From Alphaproteobacteria bacterium (GTDB lineage: Bacteria > Pseudomonadota > Alphaproteobacteria > Sphingomonadales > Kordiimonadaceae): a DNA stretch of 64,000 nucleotides. A program made the translations under genes and the position numbers. This document shows positions 36,409-62,575 of this stretch, in pieces; position 1 is the first letter of the stretch, and the number at the start of each line of letters is the position of its first letter. Under the pieces are notes generated by a model. That model saw only the letters and a list, made by a program, of their open reading frames with translations, had not been told where the DNA came from and ran no database searches. Where the stretch lies: the NCBI GenBank assembly GCA_006226495.1, contig SBGU01000052.1, positions 62,001 through 126,000 of the forward strand, in the 5' to 3' direction.

Positions 36409-39174
36409 ATGACCACAGTCCGCAACCGCCGTGATGTGATCAGCCGAAAAAGCCTGGTGATCATGCTTGAAAACATGGTCGAGGAACGCCCGGAAAGCGA
36501 ATGGCGCCAGGGCCTGGTGACGATCCTGAAGGACGCCTACCAGCATGGCTGGAACGAGGTGAAGCGCCGTTTCATGGAAGAGGCGGAAACCGGCCGCAAC
36601 AGCGCCCATGCGCTGAGTTTCCTTGCCGACCAGATTTTGCGCACCCTGTATGATTTTGTCACCGGCCATGTCTATCCGCTGGCGAACCCCACGGCGTCTG
36701 AAAAGCTGTGCCTGGTGGCCACGGGCGGTTATGGCCGCGGCGAAATGGCGCCGTTTTCGGATGTCGACCTCCTGTTCCTGATCCCCTACAAATCGACACC
36801 CTGGGCCGAGAATGTGGTCGAATATATGCTCTATGTGCTGTGGGATCTGGGCCTGAAGGTCGGCCACGCCACCCGCACGCCAGAGGAATGCAGCCGGCTC
36901 GCCAAGGAAGACCTGACCATCCGCACCGCGCTTCTCGAGGCCCGTTACCTGTGGGGCGACGAAAGCCTGTTCGATGCCGCCGCCAAACGGTTTGTGCGCC
37001 GGGTCGTGGCCACCACCGGGCCCGAATTTGTCGACCAGAAGCTGGCCGAGCGCAACAACCGCCACCAGAAACTGGGCGACAGCCGTTATGTGGTTGAACC
37101 CAACATCAAGGAAGGCAAGGGCGGCTTGCGCGACCTGCAGACCATGTGGTGGATCGCCCGCTATCTGTATGGCACCGGCATCGACCATGAACAGGCGGTC
37201 AAGAAGGATATCCTGACCCAGAAGGAAAACCGCCAGTTCAAGCAGGCGGAAAACTTCCTCTGGACCGTGCGCGTGGCTCTGCATTTTGTCTCGGGCCGGG
37301 CCGAAGAACGGCTGACCTTCGATGTGCAGCGCCAACTGGCCGACCTGCTGCATTACAAGGACCACCCGGGCGCCAGCGGTGTCGAACGTTTCATGAAACA
37401 CTATTTCCTGGTGGCCAAACAGGTAGGCGACCTGACGCGCATCTTCTGTGCGGTTCTGGAAGCGCGCCAGAAAAAGACCGCCTTTTTCTCGCGTTTCCGC
37501 CGCACCAAGAAGCTGCAGGATTTTGCCCTTGAAGGCGGTCGCCTGACCTTCGTGGCCGAACAGGACCTGAAGGACAATCCGGCGCTGATGGTACGCATCT
37601 TCCGCGTGGCCGATGAAAAGGGGCTGGATATCCACCCGGATGCCCTCCGCCTCATCAAGCATAATCTGTCGCGCATCACCGACCGGGTGCGGCGCGACCC
37701 GCAGGCGAACGAGGATTTCCTCGCGGTGCTGACCTCGAAGAACGAGGGCGAAATCAACCTCAGGCGCATGAACGAGGCCGGTGTGTTCGGGCGCTTCGTG
37801 CCCGATTTCGGCCGGGTCGTGGCCCAGATGCAGTATGACATGTACCATCATTATACGGTGGACGAGCATACGATCCATGCCATCGGCCTTGTGGCCAAGA
37901 TCGAGTCCGGCGAGCTGCAGGCCGACCACCCGCTGTCGACCGATGTGATCCAGAAGGTGATCTCGCGCCGGGTGCTCTATGTCGCCGTGCTGCTGCACGA
38001 CATCGCCAAGGGCCGGGGCGGCGACCATTCGGTGCTGGGCGCCGATGTCGCCGAACATCTGTGCCCACGTTTCGGGCTCAAACCCGCCGAAACCGAAACC
38101 GTGGCCTGGCTCGTGCGCTGGCACCTTTTGATGAGCAGCACCGCCTTCAAACGTGATTTGAGCGACCACAAGACCATCCAGGATTTCTGCGAACTGGTGA
38201 AAAGCCCGGAACGGCTGCGCCTTCTCCTTGTGCTGACGGTTGTTGACATCCGCGCCGTCGGCCCGGGGGTCTGGAACGGCTGGAAAGGCCAACTGTTGCG
38301 CGAGCTGTATTATGCCGCCGAAGAGGTATTGCTGGCCGGCCATGCCAATGTGGGCCGCACCGAACGGGTGAAAGCCAAACAGGCGGAGCTGCGTGCCGCG
38401 CTCAAGGACTGGTCGGACGCCGCCTTCAAAAAACATGTGGAGCGCATGAACGACGCCTACTGGATCGCCGAGGCGCCGGATACCCTGGTGCAGAACGCCG
38501 AACTGATGAAAAAGACCGACGAGGCCAAACGCCCCCTGGGGGTGACGGTCCGCATCGAACAGTTCCAGGACATGACCAATGTATCGGTCTACACCGGCGA
38601 CCATCCAGGCCTGTTTGCCCGCATCGTCGGCGCGCTGGGGGTGGGTGGTGCCACCATCATGGGTGCCAAGATCCACACCTCAGCCGACGGTATGGCCATG
38701 GACAATTTCACGGTGCAGGACCTTGAGGGCCGGGCGTTCGACAGTACCCGCGCGCTCGACAAGCTGGAGCACACCATCCTTGAAACCCTGATGGGCAATG
38801 TACGCCCGAAGGAAAAGCTGGTCGAACGCCGCATGTTCGGCAAGAAAACCGGCGCCTTCGAGGTGGAACCCGTGGTGCTGATCGACAACAAGGCCTCCAG
38901 CCGCTCGACCGTGATCGAGGTCAATGCCAAGGACAGGCCGGGCCTTCTGTACGATCTCGCCTATGCGCTGTACCGCCTTAAACTTTCCATTTTCTCGGCC
39001 CATGTTGCCACCTATGGCGAACGCGCGATCGATGTGTTTTATGTGCGCGACCTTGTCGGCCAGAAAGTGACCAACAAGGTGCGGCTGAGGAACATCGAGG
39101 ACAAATTGCTGAAAGCCGCGCGCGGCGAACAGATTTTCTCGAGCAAGAACCGCCATACGGAGACGGTGCAGTGA
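36409..39174 (+). CDS. glnD: Bifunctional uridylyltransferase/uridylyl-removing enzyme GlnD
   Basis: A 921-aa nitrogen sensor that uridylylates PII proteins at low glutamine and removes UMP at high glutamine. The nucleotidyltransferase motif [19 protein letters not shown], the HD hydrolase motif [14 protein letters not shown], and two C-terminal ACT domains (about 710-790 and 825-905; [13 protein letters not shown] in the second) are all intact. It overlaps murJ (GTGA). Confidence 0.97.
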
Positions 39175-40736
39175 GCCTGGCGAAACGCCTGACCGCGGTC
39201 GGGGGCCTGACGATGCTGAGCCGCGTGCTGGGCCTGACCCGCGACCTTCTGGTCGCGCGCTACCTGGGCGCCGGCATGGCGGCGGATGCCTTTTTCATCG
39301 CTTTCAAGCTGCCGAACTTTTTCCGCCGCCTGTTCGCGGAAGGCGCCTTCACGGTCGGTTTTGTGCCGCTGTTCGCCCGGGTCCTCGGCAAGGATATCAC
39401 CCCCGAAAGCCGCATCGCCGCCGAGGCCTTCGCCGGCAGGGTGCTGGCCTGGTTCCTGCCGGTCCTGCTGGTCTTCCTCCTGATCATGGAAGCGGCGATG
39501 GTGCCGGTGATGACGGGCCTGACCGGTGGTTTTGACGGCGATACGGCCAAGTTCAATCTGGCGGTCGAGCTCGGGCGCTATACTTTCCCCTATCTGGTGC
39601 TGATCTCCTTGGCGTCGTTCCTGGGCGGCATCTTGAACGCCTATGAACGGTTTTCGGCTGCGGCCTTTGTGCCCGTTTTGCTGAATATCTTCATGATCAG
39701 CGCCATGCTGCTGGCCGGCGACAGCGAGCTTGATGTCGCGCGCTATCTTGCCATCGCCGTGTCGCTGTCCGGCGTCGCGCAGTTCCTGTGGCTTTATGTG
39801 GCCGCGCACCGGGCCGGCGTGCGGCTCAGGTTTCCGTTCCCGCGCCTGAGCGACGATGTGAAGGAACTGCTGAAGGTGATGGGCCCCGCCGCCATCGGCG
39901 CCGGCGTGATGCAGATCAACCTGCTGGTCGATACCCTGATCGCGGCGCGCTACCTGCCCGAAGGCTCGGTCTCCTGGCTTTTTTACGCCGACCGGCTGAA
40001 CCAGTTGCCGCTGGGTGTGATCGGGGTGGCGGTCGGTACGGTATTGTTGCCCAGCATTTCGCGCCTCCTGGCGGGCGGCGATGACGCAGGCGCCAACCGG
40101 CAGCAGAACCGCGCGCTTGAATTCACACTCCTTCTTACCATCCCGGCGGCGGGGGCACTGGCGGCGCTCAGCCTGCCGATCATCTCGACTATTTTTGAAC
40201 GTGAAGCCTTCAGCCACACAGACAGCATTGCCACCGCCGCCGCGCTGGCGGCCTATGCCTTCGGCCTGCCGGCCTATGTGATTTCAAAAGCGCTGTCGCC
40301 CGGTTATTTCGCCCGCAAGGACACCCGCACGCCGGTGCGTTTTGCCGTGGTGTCGCTGGTGTTGAACACGGTCCTGAACCTTGTGTTCATACAGTTCATG
40401 GGCCATGTCGGCCTCGCCGCCGCCACCGCGGTTGCGGCCTGGGTGAATGTTGTGCTGCTGTATGGCGGGCTGAAACGCCGCGGCCATATCGCGCTGGAAC
40501 ACCGCACCAGGGTGCGGGTGGTAAAATTCACGGCGGCGACCGTGCTGATGTCGGCCGCGGTCTGGTATCTGGCGCACATCTCGGCCGGGGCGTTCGCGAC
40601 CGACGGCGCCCTCAGGATCGCCAGCCTTCTGGGCCTGGTGGTTGCCGGTATCGTGCTGTATTTCATCCTGATCTTCGCCTTCCGCACCATGCCGGCCAGC
40701 GACCTGACCGGTTTCCTGAAGCGCAAGCGCGGCTGA
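39171..40736 (+). CDS. murJ: Lipid II flippase MurJ (MviN)
   Basis: A 521-aa membrane protein of the MOP superfamily with about 14 helices that flips lipid II across the inner membrane for peptidoglycan synthesis. N-terminal family sequence TMLSRVLGLTRDLLVAR and NFFRRLFAEGAF are typical. GTG start at 39171 overlaps the glnD stop. Confidence 0.97.
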   Translation: MSLAKRLTAVGGLTMLSRVLGLTRDLLVARYLGAGMAADAFFIAFKLPNFFRRLFAEGAFTVGFVPLFARVLGKDITPESRIAAEAFAGRVLAWFLPVLLVFLLIMEAAMVPVMTGLTGGFDGDTAKFNLAVELGRYTFPYLVLISLASFLGGILNAYERFSAAAFVPVLLNIFMISAMLLAGDSELDVARYLAIAVSLSGVAQFLWLYVAAHRAGVRLRFPFPRLSDDVKELLKVMGPAAIGAGVMQINLLVDTLIAARYLPEGSVSWLFYADRLNQLPLGVIGVAVGTVLLPSISRLLAGGDDAGANRQQNRALEFTLLLTIPAAGALAALSLPIISTIFEREAFSHTDSIATAAALAAYAFGLPAYVISKALSPGYFARKDTRTPVRFAVVSLVLNTVLNLVFIQFMGHVGLAAATAVAAWVNVVLLYGGLKRRGHIALEHRTRVRVVKFTAATVLMSAAVWYLAHISAGAFATDGALRIASLLGLVVAGIVLYFILIFAFRTMPASDLTGFLKRKRG

Positions 40737-45917: not shown

Positions 45918-47147
45918 ATGGCCGACAAGCAGGTCATCGCCGTCATTTTCGGGGGAAGAAGCGTCGAGCATGATGTGAGTGTGCTGAGCGGCCTGCAGTT
46001 CCTGGAGGCCCTCGATCCCGTGCGCTTCGAAGGCCTGCCCGTTTATGTCGACCCCCTCGGCCAATGGTGGACCGGCGACGCGCTCAAGAAACGCAGCCGC
46101 TACCCGCTGGACGACGAACAGAACAAGGACCTGATGCAGGTCAGCCTCGACCTCGCGACCCCGGCGGCGGGCCGGCCGCGCCTTGTCGGACACCAGAAGG
46201 GCCTGATGGGCGACAAGCGCATCCACCTGCCCTTCGACCTGATGGTGCCGGCGATCCATGGCTCGAACGGCGAAGACGGCACCTTGCAGGGCCTCCTGGA
46301 TTTTGCCGGTGTGCCCTATGCCGGCTGCCGCACTTTGGGGGCCGCCGCCACCATGAACAAGGTTTTCACCAAATCGGTCGCCCGCGCACACGGTATCAAG
46401 GTGCTGCCGGAGTTGACCCTCAAGCGCCCGGGCCGTGGCCAGTTCATCGACCCCGAAAAGCTGGCAGCCGAACTGGATGCGGCCTTTGGTGCCACATACG
46501 GTTTCCCCTATATCGTCAAGCCCGCAAACCTGGGCTCCAGCGTCGGGGTCGGCAAAGCCGGCGATATGGACGGCCTGGTGGCAGCACTCATGACCGCCTT
46601 CCGGCTGGACAGCGAGGTGATTGTCGAACCCTTCGTGCCGAACCTGACCGAATATAATATCGCCGTACGCCGCAAGTCTGACGGTGTGGTCGCCACTTCG
46701 GCCATCGAACGGCCGCTCAGGAACGCCGAACTCCTGGACTTCAAAAACAAATATCTGGCTGGCGGCACGCCCGGCGGCCCCAAGCTGGACAGTGGCCCCA
46801 GCGAAGGCATGGCATCGCTGAACCGGGTGTTGAACCCGGACGAGCTGTCGGCGGAACAGGAAAGCTTCATCCGCGGCAGCGCCAGCGGCATTTTTGAACG
46901 CCTGGCGCTCGCCGGCAGCGTGCGGGTCGATTTCCTGTGCGACAGCGAAACCGGCGAGCTTTGGCTCAATGAAGTCAATACCATTCCGGGCTCCTTCGCC
47001 TATTTCCTGTGGGAAGCGGCGGCAGAGCCCATCAGCTTCCTTGGCCTCACGAGCGCCATCATCGACGAAGGTTTCCGCCTGTCCGGCGAACGGCTGGGCG
47101 CGACCGATGCAGGCGCGGGCGGCGCGACCATCTTCCGCCGGGGCTGA
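45918..47147 (+). CDS. ATP-grasp ligase of the D-alanine-D-alanine ligase family
   Basis: A 409-aa ATP-grasp enzyme. Ddl motifs are present: SVEHDVSVLSG (first-substrate Glu17), YIVKPANLGSSVGVG (phosphate loop and Ser), KYLAGG (the Lys-Tyr seen in D-Ala-D-Ala rather than D-Ala-D-Lac enzymes) and NEVNTIPG (Mg-binding Glu and Asn). It is longer than typical Ddl (about 306-370) and lies outside any dcw cluster, upstream of a hydrolase and a membrane MurF-like gene. It may be the cell's Ddl, or a second ligase for a special dipeptide. ATG 45918 follows AAGGGGGAA. A longer frame from 45873 lacks a ribosome site. Confidence 0.88.
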   Translation: MADKQVIAVIFGGRSVEHDVSVLSGLQFLEALDPVRFEGLPVYVDPLGQWWTGDALKKRSRYPLDDEQNKDLMQVSLDLATPAAGRPRLVGHQKGLMGDKRIHLPFDLMVPAIHGSNGEDGTLQGLLDFAGVPYAGCRTLGAAATMNKVFTKSVARAHGIKVLPELTLKRPGRGQFIDPEKLAAELDAAFGATYGFPYIVKPANLGSSVGVGKAGDMDGLVAALMTAFRLDSEVIVEPFVPNLTEYNIAVRRKSDGVVATSAIERPLRNAELLDFKNKYLAGGTPGGPKLDSGPSEGMASLNRVLNPDELSAEQESFIRGSASGIFERLALAGSVRVDFLCDSETGELWLNEVNTIPGSFAYFLWEAAAEPISFLGLTSAIIDEGFRLSGERLGATDAGAGGATIFRRG

Positions 47148-47150
47148 GGC

Positions 47151-47930
47151 ATGGCGGACGCGGGCGGCAGCATGACAGAACCCTGGCACCAGGAAACGTT
47201 TGGCGGCGGCGAGCCCGTCTTTGTCTGGCTGCACGGCTGGGGCCAGACCGGGGCCTCGATGGCCCGCCTGGCGCAACTGTTCAGCGCCCATGGCCGGCAT
47301 GTGATCTATGACCTGCCCGGTTTTGGCCAGACAGCGATGCTGGCCGAAGGCGCCGGCACCGAAGATTATGCCGATGCGCTGGCGGCCAAGATGGCCTCAG
47401 CCGGCATCGGGCCCGCCATCATTGTCGGCCACAGCTTCGGCGGTCGCATGGCCGTGCAGATGGCGGCACGCCATCCGGACCGGGTGAAAGCCTGTATCAT
47501 CATCGCGGGCGCCGGGCTGAAGCGCCGGCGTTCGCTGGCCTTCAAGCTGCGCGCTATGGCACTGCGCACGCTCGGTCGTCTGGCACGACTTTCGGACCGG
47601 CTGTTCGGCACCCGCTTCCGGGATGCCTATGTGGCGCGCTTCGGCAGCGCCGATTATAAAAACGCCGGGGCACTCAGGGCCACCTTCGTGCGCGCCGTCA
47701 ACGAAAACCTGGTGGCCGAAGCCAAGGCCGGGCGCGCGCCAACCCTTCTCCTCTACGGGTCCGACGATACCGAAACCCCGCCCGAGATCGGCCGCCGTTA
47801 TGAACACCTGATCCCGATTGCGCGCTTTGTCGAGATGCCCGGATTCGGCCATCTGGATATCCTGAGCCGCGGCGCCTACCAGTGCGAGGCGCAGATCCGC
47901 GCCTTCCTCAAGGACCTTGCCGATGCCTGA
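47151..47930 (+). CDS. Alpha/beta hydrolase between Ddl-like and MurF-like genes
   Basis: A 259-aa serine hydrolase: oxyanion HGWGQTG, nucleophile GHSFGG (Ser95), Asp in LYGSDDTETPPE and His in PGFGHLD. The middle (about 115-165) is a basic, helix-rich cap. It starts 3 nt after the Ddl-like gene and overlaps the MurF-like gene by 8 nt, so the three are translated together. It may act as a thioesterase, peptidase or esterase on the product of its neighbours; the substrate cannot be read. Confidence 0.85.
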   Translation: MADAGGSMTEPWHQETFGGGEPVFVWLHGWGQTGASMARLAQLFSAHGRHVIYDLPGFGQTAMLAEGAGTEDYADALAAKMASAGIGPAIIVGHSFGGRMAVQMAARHPDRVKACIIIAGAGLKRRRSLAFKLRAMALRTLGRLARLSDRLFGTRFRDAYVARFGSADYKNAGALRATFVRAVNENLVAEAKAGRAPTLLLYGSDDTETPPEIGRRYEHLIPIARFVEMPGFGHLDILSRGAYQCEAQIRAFLKDLADA

Positions 47931-49653
47931 CCTGCCCTTCCATCCCGTCGTGCTGGCGCTTGGTGTGCCCCTGATTGTCTGGTTCGCGCTCGAACGCGGG
48001 CTGGCGCTGATGAAATTTTTCCAGCAGGAAGAATATGACGGCGTGCGTTTTGTCGCCTGGCTGAAGGACAATGCTGCCGTCGACCGGCGCGCGAGCCTGT
48101 GGCTTTTGGCAGCCGCCCTTCTGGGCACAATTTCGCAGACATTGCTGGCAAATGCGGTCGGCGTGGTCCTGAACAGTATCGGCTATCTGGTCTGGCCCAT
48201 GCTGGTGCTGGCCTTTGTGCATGGCGCCCTGCGTTCACGCAGCCAGCGGGGCGGCAGCAAAAAGCCGCTGGTGCTGACCGACCGGGTGAAACGCATCCTG
48301 ATGGTCTATATGGGCCTGGCAGTGGGCGCCCTTGTTGTGTGCCTTATCCTCGCAGGCCTGGCGCCGCGCGGGCACCAGTATGGCCTGCAGCTTGACGTCA
48401 ATGACATCCGCTGGCTGAGCCTGAGCTACGACTGGCGCGTGGTGGTGATCTCGCTGTTGCTGATCGCGTTCGCACAGAGCCTGCCGTTCCTGCTGGTCGC
48501 CGCCAACAAGCTGCTGGAGCCCGCCGAAGAACGGGTCAAAGCCCGCTTCCGCGCCGAAGCCATCGAAAAATTCACCAAACTGCAGCCGAAGGTGATCGCC
48601 ATCACCGGCTCGTTCGGCAAGACATCCACGAAACATATCCTGCAACATATCCTGTCAAGCGCCGCGCCGACGCTCGCGACCCCCGGCAGCGTGAATACCG
48701 ACATGGGCATCACCCGGGTGATCCGCGAACAACTGACGCCCGAGCACCAGTTTTTCATCGTCGAGATGGGCGCCTATGGCCCCGGCTCGATCGCGCGCCT
48801 GTGCCGGCTGACGCCGCCGGATGTCGGCCTGATCACCGCCGTGGGTGCCGCGCACTATGAGCGGTTCAAGACCCTGGAAACCGTTGCCCGCGCCAAGTTC
48901 GAACTGGCCGAAGCCACCTTCGCGCGCGGCGGCGAAGTGGTGGTGAACCCGGACGGCATCGCGCCGGACCTGCTGGCCGAACGCCAGGCCGCCGTGCCCG
49001 GTCGTTATATCAGTGCCGGCACCACCGGCGATATCCGGCTTGCCGACAGCCGGATGACCGCCGACGGACTGGTGCTGACGGTCAAGGACGGCGACGAAGA
49101 CCATATCCTGAAAGCGCCGCTTTATGGCCGCCACCAGGCCGGCAATATCGTGCAGGCCGCCGCCGCCGCCCGCGCCATCGGCCTGCCATGGGCCGCGATC
49201 AAGGGCGCGCTGGCCTCGATGCCGCAAATCCGGCACCGGCTGGAGGTAACCCGTGCGACCGGTTCGCCCACCATCGTGAACGATGCCTATAATTCGAACC
49301 CGGTCGGTTTTGCCGCTGCGCTGGAATGCCTGGATGTGCTGGTGGAACCGGGCGGGCGCCGCATTCTGGTGACCCCCGGCATGGTTGAACTGGGGGCGCG
49401 CCACGACAGCGACCATGCGACCCTGGGGGCGCTGGCCGCCAAACACTGCGATATCGTGCTGGTGGTCACGCCCGACCGTATCCCGACCTTCCTGTCGGGG
49501 CTGGCCGCCACCAACGACGGCAGCACCACGGTCATGACCTATGCCACGCAGGCAGAGGCCGAAGCCTGGGTGAAAGCCAACTGGCGCGCCGGCGATGCGG
49601 TGCTGTTCGAAAACAACCTGCCCGACCTTTACGAAGCCAAAGTCAGCTTCTGA
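47923..49653 (+). CDS. Membrane-fused MurF-like Mur ligase
   Basis: A 576-aa protein. Residues 1 to about 200 hold five hydrophobic segments (about 7-25, 59-80, 84-101, 124-147, 172-194) and the motif FFQQEEYD (32-39). Residues from about 220 are MurF-like: P-loop GSFGKTST (229-236), EMGAYGPGSIARL, NDAYNSNP and a C-terminal domain with TPGMVELG. The soluble MurF domain that binds UDP-MurNAc is replaced by the membrane region, so the substrate is probably membrane-bound or otherwise different. I recall uncharacterised Mur ligases with the same membrane start. ATG 47923 overlaps the hydrolase stop; a TTG at 47917 is less likely. Confidence 0.85.
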   Translation: MPDLPFHPVVLALGVPLIVWFALERGLALMKFFQQEEYDGVRFVAWLKDNAAVDRRASLWLLAAALLGTISQTLLANAVGVVLNSIGYLVWPMLVLAFVHGALRSRSQRGGSKKPLVLTDRVKRILMVYMGLAVGALVVCLILAGLAPRGHQYGLQLDVNDIRWLSLSYDWRVVVISLLLIAFAQSLPFLLVAANKLLEPAEERVKARFRAEAIEKFTKLQPKVIAITGSFGKTSTKHILQHILSSAAPTLATPGSVNTDMGITRVIREQLTPEHQFFIVEMGAYGPGSIARLCRLTPPDVGLITAVGAAHYERFKTLETVARAKFELAEATFARGGEVVVNPDGIAPDLLAERQAAVPGRYISAGTTGDIRLADSRMTADGLVLTVKDGDEDHILKAPLYGRHQAGNIVQAAAAARAIGLPWAAIKGALASMPQIRHRLEVTRATGSPTIVNDAYNSNPVGFAAALECLDVLVEPGGRRILVTPGMVELGARHDSDHATLGALAAKHCDIVLVVTPDRIPTFLSGLAATNDGSTTVMTYATQAEAEAWVKANWRAGDAVLFENNLPDLYEAKVSF

Positions 49654-61366: not shown

Positions 61367-62575
61367 ATGAAACATCGCGCAGGCACCGACAAAAGCCTTA
61401 CTTCCACCTGGGCACGCCAGACCCAGATGGTGCGCGCGGGTTCGATGCGGTCCAATTTCGATGAAATGGGCGAAGCCCTGTTCCTGACATCGGCCTTCGC
61501 CTACGAAAATGCCGAAGAAGCCGAAGCCCGTTTTGACGGCCGCAAGGAAGGTTTCACCTATTCGCGCCAGACCAACCCGACCGTGGCCATGTTCGAAAGC
61601 CGCATGGCGCTACTTGAAGGCGCTGACGTGGGCCGCGCCACCGGGACCGGCATGGCCGCAATGACCGCGGCGCTTCTCTGTTACCTGCGCTCGGGCGACC
61701 ATATCATCGGTGCGCGCGCCGCCTTCGGCTCGTGCCGCTGGCTGATGGACGAACTGCTGCCACGCTATGGGATCGAAACCACAGTCGTGGACGGCACCAG
61801 CCTTGATGCCTGGAAAGCCGCGATCCGGCCCAATACCAGGATGTTCTTCATGGAAACGCCGGCCAACCCGACCCTCGATCTGGTCGATATTCAGGCCGTG
61901 GCGGACATGGCCCATGCGGTTGGTGCCAAGCTGGTGGTCGACAATGTGTTTGCAACACCTGTGTTGCAACTGCCGATGGCGCACGGGGCCGATATCGTCT
62001 GTTATTCCACCACCAAACATATCGACGGCCAGGGCCGCTGTCTGGGCGGCATTGTGCTGTGTGACAAGGAATTCGACGAAAAACATCTCTATCCCTTCTA
62101 CCGCCACACCGGCTGTGCCATGTCGCCCTTCAATGCCTGGGTGATGCTGAAGGGGCTGGAGACCATGGGCATCCGCGTGAACGCCATGTGCGACAATGCG
62201 GACAAGCTGGCTGCCGCCGTTGCCGAACGGCTGGAGGATGTGCGCCACCCGAGCCTTGCGCGGTTCAAGCAGCCCGAACTGGCCGCAAAGCAGATGAGCC
62301 GGGGCGGCACCATGGTGATCTTCTGCCTGCCGGGCGGGCGTGACCAGGCCTTCAAGTTCCTGAACGCGCTGCAGATTGTGGATATTTCCAACAATCTGGG
62401 CGACAGCCGCTCGATCGCCACGCACTGCTGGAGCACCACCCACAAGGCGCTCAGCGAAGAGGCACGGCTTGAAGTTGGCGTGACCCCCGGCCTGATCCGT
62501 TTCTCCGTCGGACTTGAAGATGGCGACGATCTGGTCAAGGATGTCATGCAGGCGCTTGACGCGGCCGGGGTCTGA
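61367..62575 (+). CDS. metZ: O-succinylhomoserine sulfhydrylase (MetZ type)
   Basis: A 402-aa PLP enzyme of the Cys/Met metabolism family making homocysteine from O-succinylhomoserine and sulfide. The PLP lysine is Lys217 in YSTTKHIDGQG; ETPANPTLDLVDI and TYSRQTNPT are family blocks. MetZ versus the acetyl-homoserine enzyme cannot be settled by eye; the name follows overall pattern. The ATG has GGAG upstream. Confidence 0.88.
   Translation: MKHRAGTDKSLTSTWARQTQMVRAGSMRSNFDEMGEALFLTSAFAYENAEEAEARFDGRKEGFTYSRQTNPTVAMFESRMALLEGADVGRATGTGMAAMTAALLCYLRSGDHIIGARAAFGSCRWLMDELLPRYGIETTVVDGTSLDAWKAAIRPNTRMFFMETPANPTLDLVDIQAVADMAHAVGAKLVVDNVFATPVLQLPMAHGADIVCYSTTKHIDGQGRCLGGIVLCDKEFDEKHLYPFYRHTGCAMSPFNAWVMLKGLETMGIRVNAMCDNADKLAAAVAERLEDVRHPSLARFKQPELAAKQMSRGGTMVIFCLPGGRDQAFKFLNALQIVDISNNLGDSRSIATHCWSTTHKALSEEARLEVGVTPGLIRFSVGLEDGDDLVKDVMQALDAAGV

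Follow-up and report, generated by a model that had tools for sequence, protein, structure and literature searches.

A conserved operon of a remodelled Ddl, a hydrolase and a membrane-domain MurF in Kordiimonadaceae: a probable replacement for the last intracellular ligation of peptidoglycan synthesis

The operon and its three genes

The stretch of DNA analysed here (hereafter the window) covers 64,000 nucleotides, positions 62,001 to 126,000 of contig SBGU01000052.1 (assembly GCA_006226495.1), and comes from an alphaproteobacterium of the family Kordiimonadaceae, whose 4.32-Mb genome is 96.8% complete and whose relatives are Kordiimonas. It holds three plus-strand genes, encoding a Ddl-type ligase, an alpha/beta hydrolase and a MurF-like ligase with a predicted membrane domain in place of the usual N-terminal domain, designated the membrane MurF (mMurF). 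MurF, whose step of wall building is highly conserved, usually counts as an essential, soluble and near-universal enzyme and as a drug target. In this article, we argue that the operon is probably (at roughly three chances in four) a replacement module for the last intracellular ligation of peptidoglycan synthesis, that is, a non-orthologous replacement of MurF and of the classical Ddl.

The genes are coupled exactly as a first-pass annotation, made from the sequence letters, had described: the Ddl and hydrolase genes are 3 nucleotides apart, and the hydrolase and mMurF genes overlap by 8 nucleotides. The conservation of the gene order, which that annotation had proposed to survey, proved complete among near relatives. 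Among 21 further loci with an mMurF 60-77% identical to that of the window, all carry the identical three genes in the identical order, so the arrangement is not due to chance; 15 of these loci are labelled Kordiimonas, Pseudokordiimonas, Kordiimonadales or Kordiimonadaceae and six carry only labels of other alphaproteobacteria, and in one (L019) the contig end falls inside the Ddl gene. A promoter scan returned 0 sites, and a terminator scan 4 against the 3.9 expected. The coordinates are collected in Table 1.

Table 1. Genes and sequence features of the operon, in window positions
Feature	Position	Strand	Basis
Module-type Ddl, 409 aa; sole Ddl found in the genome	45918..47147	+	Pfam, profile search, alignments
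Leu273 of Ddl, where E. coli DdlB has Tyr210 (BpDdl Tyr215)	46734..46736	+	alignments
Phe363 of Ddl, where E. coli DdlB has Ser281 (BpDdl Ser286)	47004..47006	+	alignments
Alpha/beta hydrolase, 259 aa, conserved Ser95-Asp206-His234	47151..47930	+	Pfam, alignment
Membrane MurF (mMurF), 576 aa: five-helix membrane domain, MurF central and C-terminal domains	47923..49653	+	
mMurF membrane domain, residues 1-220	47923..48582	+	AlphaFold2, alignments
mMurF hallmark FQQEEYDxxRF, residues 33-43, after helix 1	48019..48051	+	alignment, 49 rows
mMurF hallmark KKxLxxTxRxxRI, residues 113-125, between helices 3 and 4	48259..48297	+	alignment
mMurF P-loop TGSFGKT, residues 228-234	48604..48624	+	alignment
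mMurF Lys325, equivalent of E. coli MurF Lys202	48895..48897	+	49/49 mMurF rows, 16/16 canonical
mMurF C-terminal ENNLPDLYE, residues 563-571; KG in canonical MurF	49609..49635	+	alignment

A MurF core behind a predicted membrane domain

In Pfam, mMurF matches Mur_ligase_M and Mur_ligase_C, and the N-terminal Mur domain is not matched. Against the murF profile TIGR01143 it scores 219 bits, below the curated cut-off of 288.6, and covers model positions 63-403 of 418. The AlphaFold2 model, built from 29 aligned sequences (the window protein and its relatives), has a mean predicted local distance difference test score of 87.2, and consists of five long N-terminal helices (residues 6-35, 55-71, 81-109, 120-145 and 172-220) followed by a MurF-like body. 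The best solved-structure matches of the core are MurF enzymes (3zl8, Z 33.9, root-mean-square deviation (rmsd) 3.9, 364 aligned). Pfam and the structure prediction thus agree with the first-pass description of a MurF catalytic core in which the domain binding UDP-N-acetylmuramic acid (UDP-MurNAc) is replaced by about five membrane segments. For the membrane domain, no Pfam family rose above its cut-off and no clear fold match emerged (Foldseek, best E 0.18; VIA, best Z 5.4, rmsd 5.1 over 127 residues).

The residues were compared between 49 mMurF rows and 16 canonical MurFs, namely 15 controls and the E. coli enzyme, with MurFs that coexist with an mMurF excluded. It should be mentioned that the 49 mMurF rows, like the 47 hydrolase rows below, count two genomes twice (L037/L146 and L038/L145), and that the 15 MurF controls and the 11 Ddl controls were taken from the top of score-ordered lists and are therefore biased to typical members. 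The P-loop and the equivalents of MurF Lys202, His188, Glu158 and Asn136 are kept in all 49 mMurF rows, and those of Arg316 and Asn334 are likewise kept; the conserved active-site lysine of MurF is its carbamate lysine. Other MurF-typical residues are changed in 47-49 of the 49 rows: Asn137 to Thr, Glu166 to Ser, Gly359-Asp360 to Pro-Gly and Lys432-Gly433 to Glu-Asn. At the last of these positions, mMurFs carry E563 (47/49) and N564 (49/49), against K (16/16) and G (15/16) in the canonical enzymes. The arginine after KGS in canonical MurF was also considered as a marker of a changed dipeptide, and was rejected as too variable among the 15 controls.

The membrane domain has its own signature. 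In the first hallmark motif, Q34, Q35 and Y38 occur in every row and R42 in 47; in the second, K113, K114 and L116 occur in 48 rows and T119 and R121 in all 49. The invariant residues of the domain are R25, Q34, Q35, Y38, D54, T119, R121, P188 and P200. If the core is cytosolic, a domain of five helices would place both loops, QQEEYD and KKxLxxTxR, on the cytosolic side. In a tree of the core, from which five dcw (division and cell wall cluster) MurFs were omitted (G000, which is the window genome, G004, G005, G012 and G018), all 49 mMurF rows form one separate group on a long branch; the support value of this group (29, after re-rooting) is unreliable and was not used. The row of genome G201 falls with MurE and is probably its MurE part.

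The module Ddl and the hydrolase

The first-pass annotation had described the first gene as a ligase with Ddl motifs, longer than usual, and both Ddl domains (PF01820 and PF07478) are indeed present. As to its membership, the domains, the ATP-grasp fold and most of the dipeptide-site residues are those of a Ddl, its score of 224.5 bits lies under the TIGR01205 cut-off of 245.65, and two dipeptide contacts are absent. Module-type Ddls keep DdlB E15, S150, K215, Y216, R255, N272 and G276 in 29-30 of 31 rows. DdlB Tyr210 is replaced by Leu, and Ser281 by Phe or Tyr, each in 29 of the 31 rows, whereas all 12 canonical Ddls (11 controls and E. coli) have Y and S there. The exceptions are the G104 row, which is a different gene and unchanged at both sites, the G254 row with Phe at 210, and the truncated G085 row, which has no residue at 281. 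In a second alignment of 20 module Ddls, Leu occurs in all, and the Ser281 place holds 15 Phe and 5 Tyr. In the Ddl of Burkholderia (BpDdl), PMC6899670 gives Tyr215 and Ser286 as contacts of D-Ala-D-Ala, and by alignment it is to these two contacts that Leu273 and Phe363 of the window Ddl correspond.

The hydrolase keeps its catalytic triad in 46-47 of 47 aligned rows. Its sequence relatives are general esterases, bromoperoxidase-like and BioH-like enzymes, and in NCBIfam the best 25 of 29 matching families all score below their cut-offs. We infer an auxiliary role for it in the module.

Loss and decay of the standard murF in the Kordiimonadaceae

The PF07478 profile finds five places in the window genome. 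Four of these score 39.6-47.8 bits in frames of 449, 672, 730 and 755 aa and are taken for other ATP-grasp enzymes; a profile search thus found no other ddl in the genome, and none in its dcw cluster. That cluster (L039) runs ftsI, murE, remnant, mraY, murD, ftsW, murG, murC, murB, ftsQ, ftsA, ftsZ, with gene names confirmed by family searches and ftsI understood as the class-B transpeptidase (PF00905) in that position. The remnant, between murE and mraY (G000:C45, L039:14166-15164, minus strand), is a murF reduced to 332 aa. It keeps an open frame and the Mur N-terminal domain (PF01225), reads GGADANLL at the place of the P-loop, and lacks the C-terminal domain. A similar remnant of 329 aa in genome G012 is 48% identical over 320 aligned residues, and the ratio of nonsynonymous to synonymous substitution rates (dN/dS) between the two is 0.35, against 0.08-0.24 for five neighbouring genes; in other words, selection on this remnant is relaxed but not free.

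In the window genome we thus recognise a single Ddl and no working copy of the standard MurF. The first-pass annotation had presented the operon as the best candidate in the window for a separate, undescribed pathway, adding that its genes would simply be housekeeping enzymes if the genome held no other ddl or normal murF. Neither was found, and because the dcw murF is a dead remnant, the operon is better read as the housekeeping enzymes themselves; the surveys described below and the dcw neighbourhoods likewise point to wall synthesis.

Across the family, an mMurF-type match occurs in all 29 Kordiimonadaceae genomes, recognised by its match range (model positions about 49-68 to 402-403) and a frame length of 541-642 aa; the membrane domain itself was aligned in the near loci. 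The best Ddl match lies 2-3 kb from mMurF in all 29 genomes (in G022 the gene is split over two contigs), and none of the 29 passes the TIGR01205 cut-off. The dcw stretches of the window genome and the other 28 show murF in several states. In eight genomes (G009, G015, G020, G021, G022, G024, G025 and G026), murE is joined straight to mraY with a gap of -50 to +4 nucleotides. The dcw murF is truncated in two (G000 and G012), lacks the P-loop and DDSYNAN in two (G004 and G005), and is eroded with loss of the NNxxG motif in three (G007, G018 and G019). It is intact by motif in the remaining 14, and the same 14 pass the TIGR01143 cut-off. Even these (e.g., L079, L087 and L101) carry Val for the lysine that follows the P-loop in E. 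coli and all 15 controls, and their branch in the core tree is long, so that they may already be altered in function.

A tree built from eight dcw proteins (3253 columns, with G028 chosen as the root) places three of these states in separate clades; its short rows are G008, G018, G017, G016 and G019, with 691-2041 of the 3253 columns. The eight deletions fall in one clade, the two truncations in a second, and the two P-loop losses in a third, each with support 100, and the neighbour of the truncations, G010, is intact (support 72). Therefore, murF has been inactivated at least three times in this family. A match to the ftsI-position transpeptidase of the window genome occurs in 27 of the other 28 dcw stretches; the remaining one, of G006, starts inside murE.

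Some genomes of the family carry further Mur-ligase matches. Among the matches listed, there are frames of about 580-616 aa in G006, G015, G020, G021, G024, G025 and G026, and of 933-954 aa in G006, G020 and G024; judged by length and match range, they look like cyanophycin synthetases.

Distribution and gene order across the Alphaproteobacteria

A profile of the membrane domain matches 22 of 385 alphaproteobacterial genomes, which belong to 19 genera and 14 family labels. A standard MurF over the cut-off is found in 329 of the 385, but in only three of the 22 mMurF-positive genomes (G150, G233 and G419) against 326 of the 363 negative ones (Fisher p 7e-15). The pattern for standard Ddl is similar: 305 of 385 overall, one of the 22 (G272) against 304 of the 363 (p 8e-15). 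Apparent traces of MurF decay are also seen outside the Kordiimonadaceae. Among the matches listed, G085 has a MurF-like match with an in-frame TAG, and two genomes of family f22 (G056:C31 and G188:C110) have frames of 760-778 aa in which MurE is followed by the first part of MurF only, up to model position 156. These are apparent murE-murF fusions with a decayed MurF half. A third genome of f22 (G286:C65) has a MurE frame of like length, with no MurF part among the matches listed.

Seven further genomes (loci L032-L038) have an mMurF and no MurF over the cut-off; two of them are, by their matches, G152 and G257, so five are additional. Three of the seven are Labrys, one of these three being a complete chromosome record. 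In the three Labrys, the sole TIGR01143 matches that cover the N-terminal part lie in frames that also match in the manner of a MurE. A phylum sample of 398 genomes gave four mMurF matches, all inside the class; since the number of genomes from outside the class was not recorded, absence elsewhere is weakly indicated. When plasmids were searched with a Labrys mMurF, none of 106 matching records covered 80% of the protein, and the best 15 of the 106 matches start at residue 152 at least, at or near the core.

The gene order was compared in 20 loci from the 21 positives other than G000, with G056 left out. In 18 of them (all but L154 and L161), a same-strand hydrolase gene lies no more than 0.8 kb upstream of mMurF. 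The module Ddl falls inside the stretch compared in 13, nine divergent and four in the same direction. In two other families, the module sits inside dcw at the ddl position, as in E. coli, where ddlB likewise precedes ftsQ: the order is murG-murC-murB-mMurF-Hyd-Ddl-ftsQ-ftsA in G354 and ftsZ-ftsA-ftsQ-mMurF-Hyd-Ddl-murB-murC in G419 (Hyd, hydrolase). In G272, Hyd-mMurF adjoins murB-murC-murG-ftsW-murD.

Two side observations concern the wider wall genes. In the window, MurJ, the lipid II flippase (PF03023, 392 bits), is encoded at 39171-40736, about 5 kb upstream of the module, as a second peptidoglycan gene nearby and outside dcw. In three genomes of the class, G103, G223 and G395 (0.9 Mb; one genus label, f69, g79), TIGR01143 matches nothing, and these organisms are perhaps wall-less.

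Comparison with known systems

The nearest known enzyme is MurF itself. mMurF shares its central ATPase and C-terminal domains, P-loop and Lys202 equivalent, and finds its best structural match there, whereas it has the five-helix membrane domain instead of the N-terminal UDP-MurNAc domain, is substituted at N137, E166, GD359-360 and KG432-433, and forms a long-branch group below the family cut-off. The module Ddl differs from DdlA/DdlB (TIGR01205) in its length of about 400-425 aa, an inserted loop and the two substitutions Y210 to L and S281 to F/Y. MurT combines Mur_ligase_M with a MurT C-terminal domain and has gatD as a neighbour, whereas mMurF has Mur_ligase_C, no MurT domain, and Ddl and hydrolase genes as neighbours. 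According to PMC6085368, MurT is a Mur-type enzyme that works on lipid-linked precursors without the usual uridine contact, as could be said of mMurF; unlike mMurF, which stands nearer to MurF and carries a membrane domain of its own, it amidates D-Glu together with GatD. Cyanophycin synthetase CphA joins ATP-grasp and Mur-ligase domains (PMC11915815); it does so in one fused chain, whereas the module consists of separate genes. Among the papers listed from an open-access library, there was no description of a membrane MurF, and none that linked murF with Kordiimonas, or murF and peptidoglycan with Labrys.

Interpretation and alternatives

The anatomy of the operon, its conservation, the absence or decay of the standard genes, the complementary distribution, the location in dcw and the retained catalytic residues were all computed. 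The class survey and the dcw neighbourhoods lead us to place the operon at the step of D-Ala-D-Ala synthesis and addition. The reaction itself and the exact dipeptide we infer: a MurF-like working of mMurF is suggested by the replacement pattern, that is, by the distribution surveys and the murE-mraY joins. The module Ddl would make the terminal D-Ala-D-Ala or a close analogue, and mMurF, at the membrane's inner face, would attach this dipeptide to the MurNAc-tripeptide. Because it lacks the UDP-MurNAc-binding domain, mMurF may act on lipid-linked precursors, and the likeliest acceptor would be the tripeptide form of lipid I or lipid II after MraY rather than free UDP-MurNAc-tripeptide. We put such an acceptor at a little short of an even bet, and with it the possibly membrane-bound acceptor suggested at first pass keeps its place as a supported reading. 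The standard dcw murF would thereby have become dispensable, and would have been lost or inactivated repeatedly.

Several observations weigh against the proposed replacement. In 14 of the 29 Kordiimonadaceae, a dcw MurF with intact motifs persists alongside mMurF, so both coexist for long. As the genomes surveyed are related, the Fisher p-values make the cases look more independent than they are; the 22 positives are spread over 14 family labels. Cut-offs are sharp: in G254 and G201, MurF matches covering the N-terminal part are still present in diverged or fused form, which means that five of the 22 keep something similar. Conversely, 37 of the 363 mMurF-negative genomes have no MurF over the cut-off; of nine of these low scorers that were inspected, eight have MurF matches bearing the N domain and one, G066 (63% complete), has none, and fragmented genomes can hide genes. 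The changed MurF-typical residues would fit an altered specificity as well as the same reaction. Finally, the lipid-linked acceptor rests on analogy, and the replacement as a whole on genes and a predicted structure.

Two alternatives stay within wall synthesis. In the first, mMurF would be isofunctional and still use soluble UDP-MurNAc-tripeptide, its membrane domain serving as a tether beside MraY and supplying a pocket for the nucleotide or pyrophosphate. The kept catalytic residues agree with this, and the conserved basic motif KKxLxxTxRxxRI could bind the pyrophosphate of either substrate; as the uridine-binding domain is absent from mMurFs, and as soluble UDP-linked precursors are no substrates of MurT, the Mur-like enzyme that acts on lipid I and II (PMC6085368), we regard it as somewhat unlikely. 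In the second, the order of assembly and the dipeptide would both have changed: MraY, and perhaps MurG, would load the tripeptide on undecaprenyl phosphate, mMurF would complete the stem on the lipid, and the Ddl product would not be plain D-Ala-D-Ala (its second residue might, for instance, be another one or be capped); the hydrolase would generate, uncap or proofread this product. In Mur ligases, the precursor is bound by the N-terminal domain and the residue to be added by the C-terminal domain (PMC11915815). The remodelled Ddl pocket and the changed C-terminal domain of mMurF may thus leave an altered dipeptide open, and the substitutions Y210 to L and S281 to F/Y in Ddl and KG to EN and GD to PG in mMurF, together with the retention of a triad-bearing hydrolase, hint at it. 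However, 14 Kordiimonadaceae pair a motif-intact MurF with only a module-type Ddl, which disfavours a large change of dipeptide, and this branch seems to us rather unlikely.

Two further explanations would take the operon, or part of it, away from the proposed replacement. A pathway outside peptidoglycan, in which a dipeptide is put onto a lipid or small molecule and the loss of murF is coincidental, or tolerated as walls do without residues 4 and 5, could draw on the same changed Ddl pocket and MurF residues and on the earlier reading from the letters. Against it stand the complementary distribution of mMurF with standard MurF and Ddl, the module inside dcw in two families, the position of the best Ddl match beside mMurF in 29 Kordiimonadaceae and the retained ftsI-position transpeptidase, and we consider it very improbable; its form as a separate secondary-metabolite pathway was dropped on the genome and class surveys. 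Even less credit is due to a split enzyme, in which the dcw remnant supplies the UDP-MurNAc-binding domain to mMurF in trans. The PF01225 domain, open frame and dN/dS of the remnant speak for it, whereas eight mMurF-bearing Kordiimonadaceae join murE to mraY with no remnant there, and the N-terminal-covering matches of the three Labrys sit in MurE-like frames. The eight remnant-free genomes refute it as a general mechanism, and leave it at most a local side role.

Implications

If the operon is indeed a replacement module, the last ligation can move to the membrane, possibly to a point after the formation of lipid I, and whether the order of assembly is obligatory becomes testable. It would also explain how cultured Kordiimonas and Labrys can do without a murF that passes the cut-off, and how Kordiimonas can also do without such a ddl.

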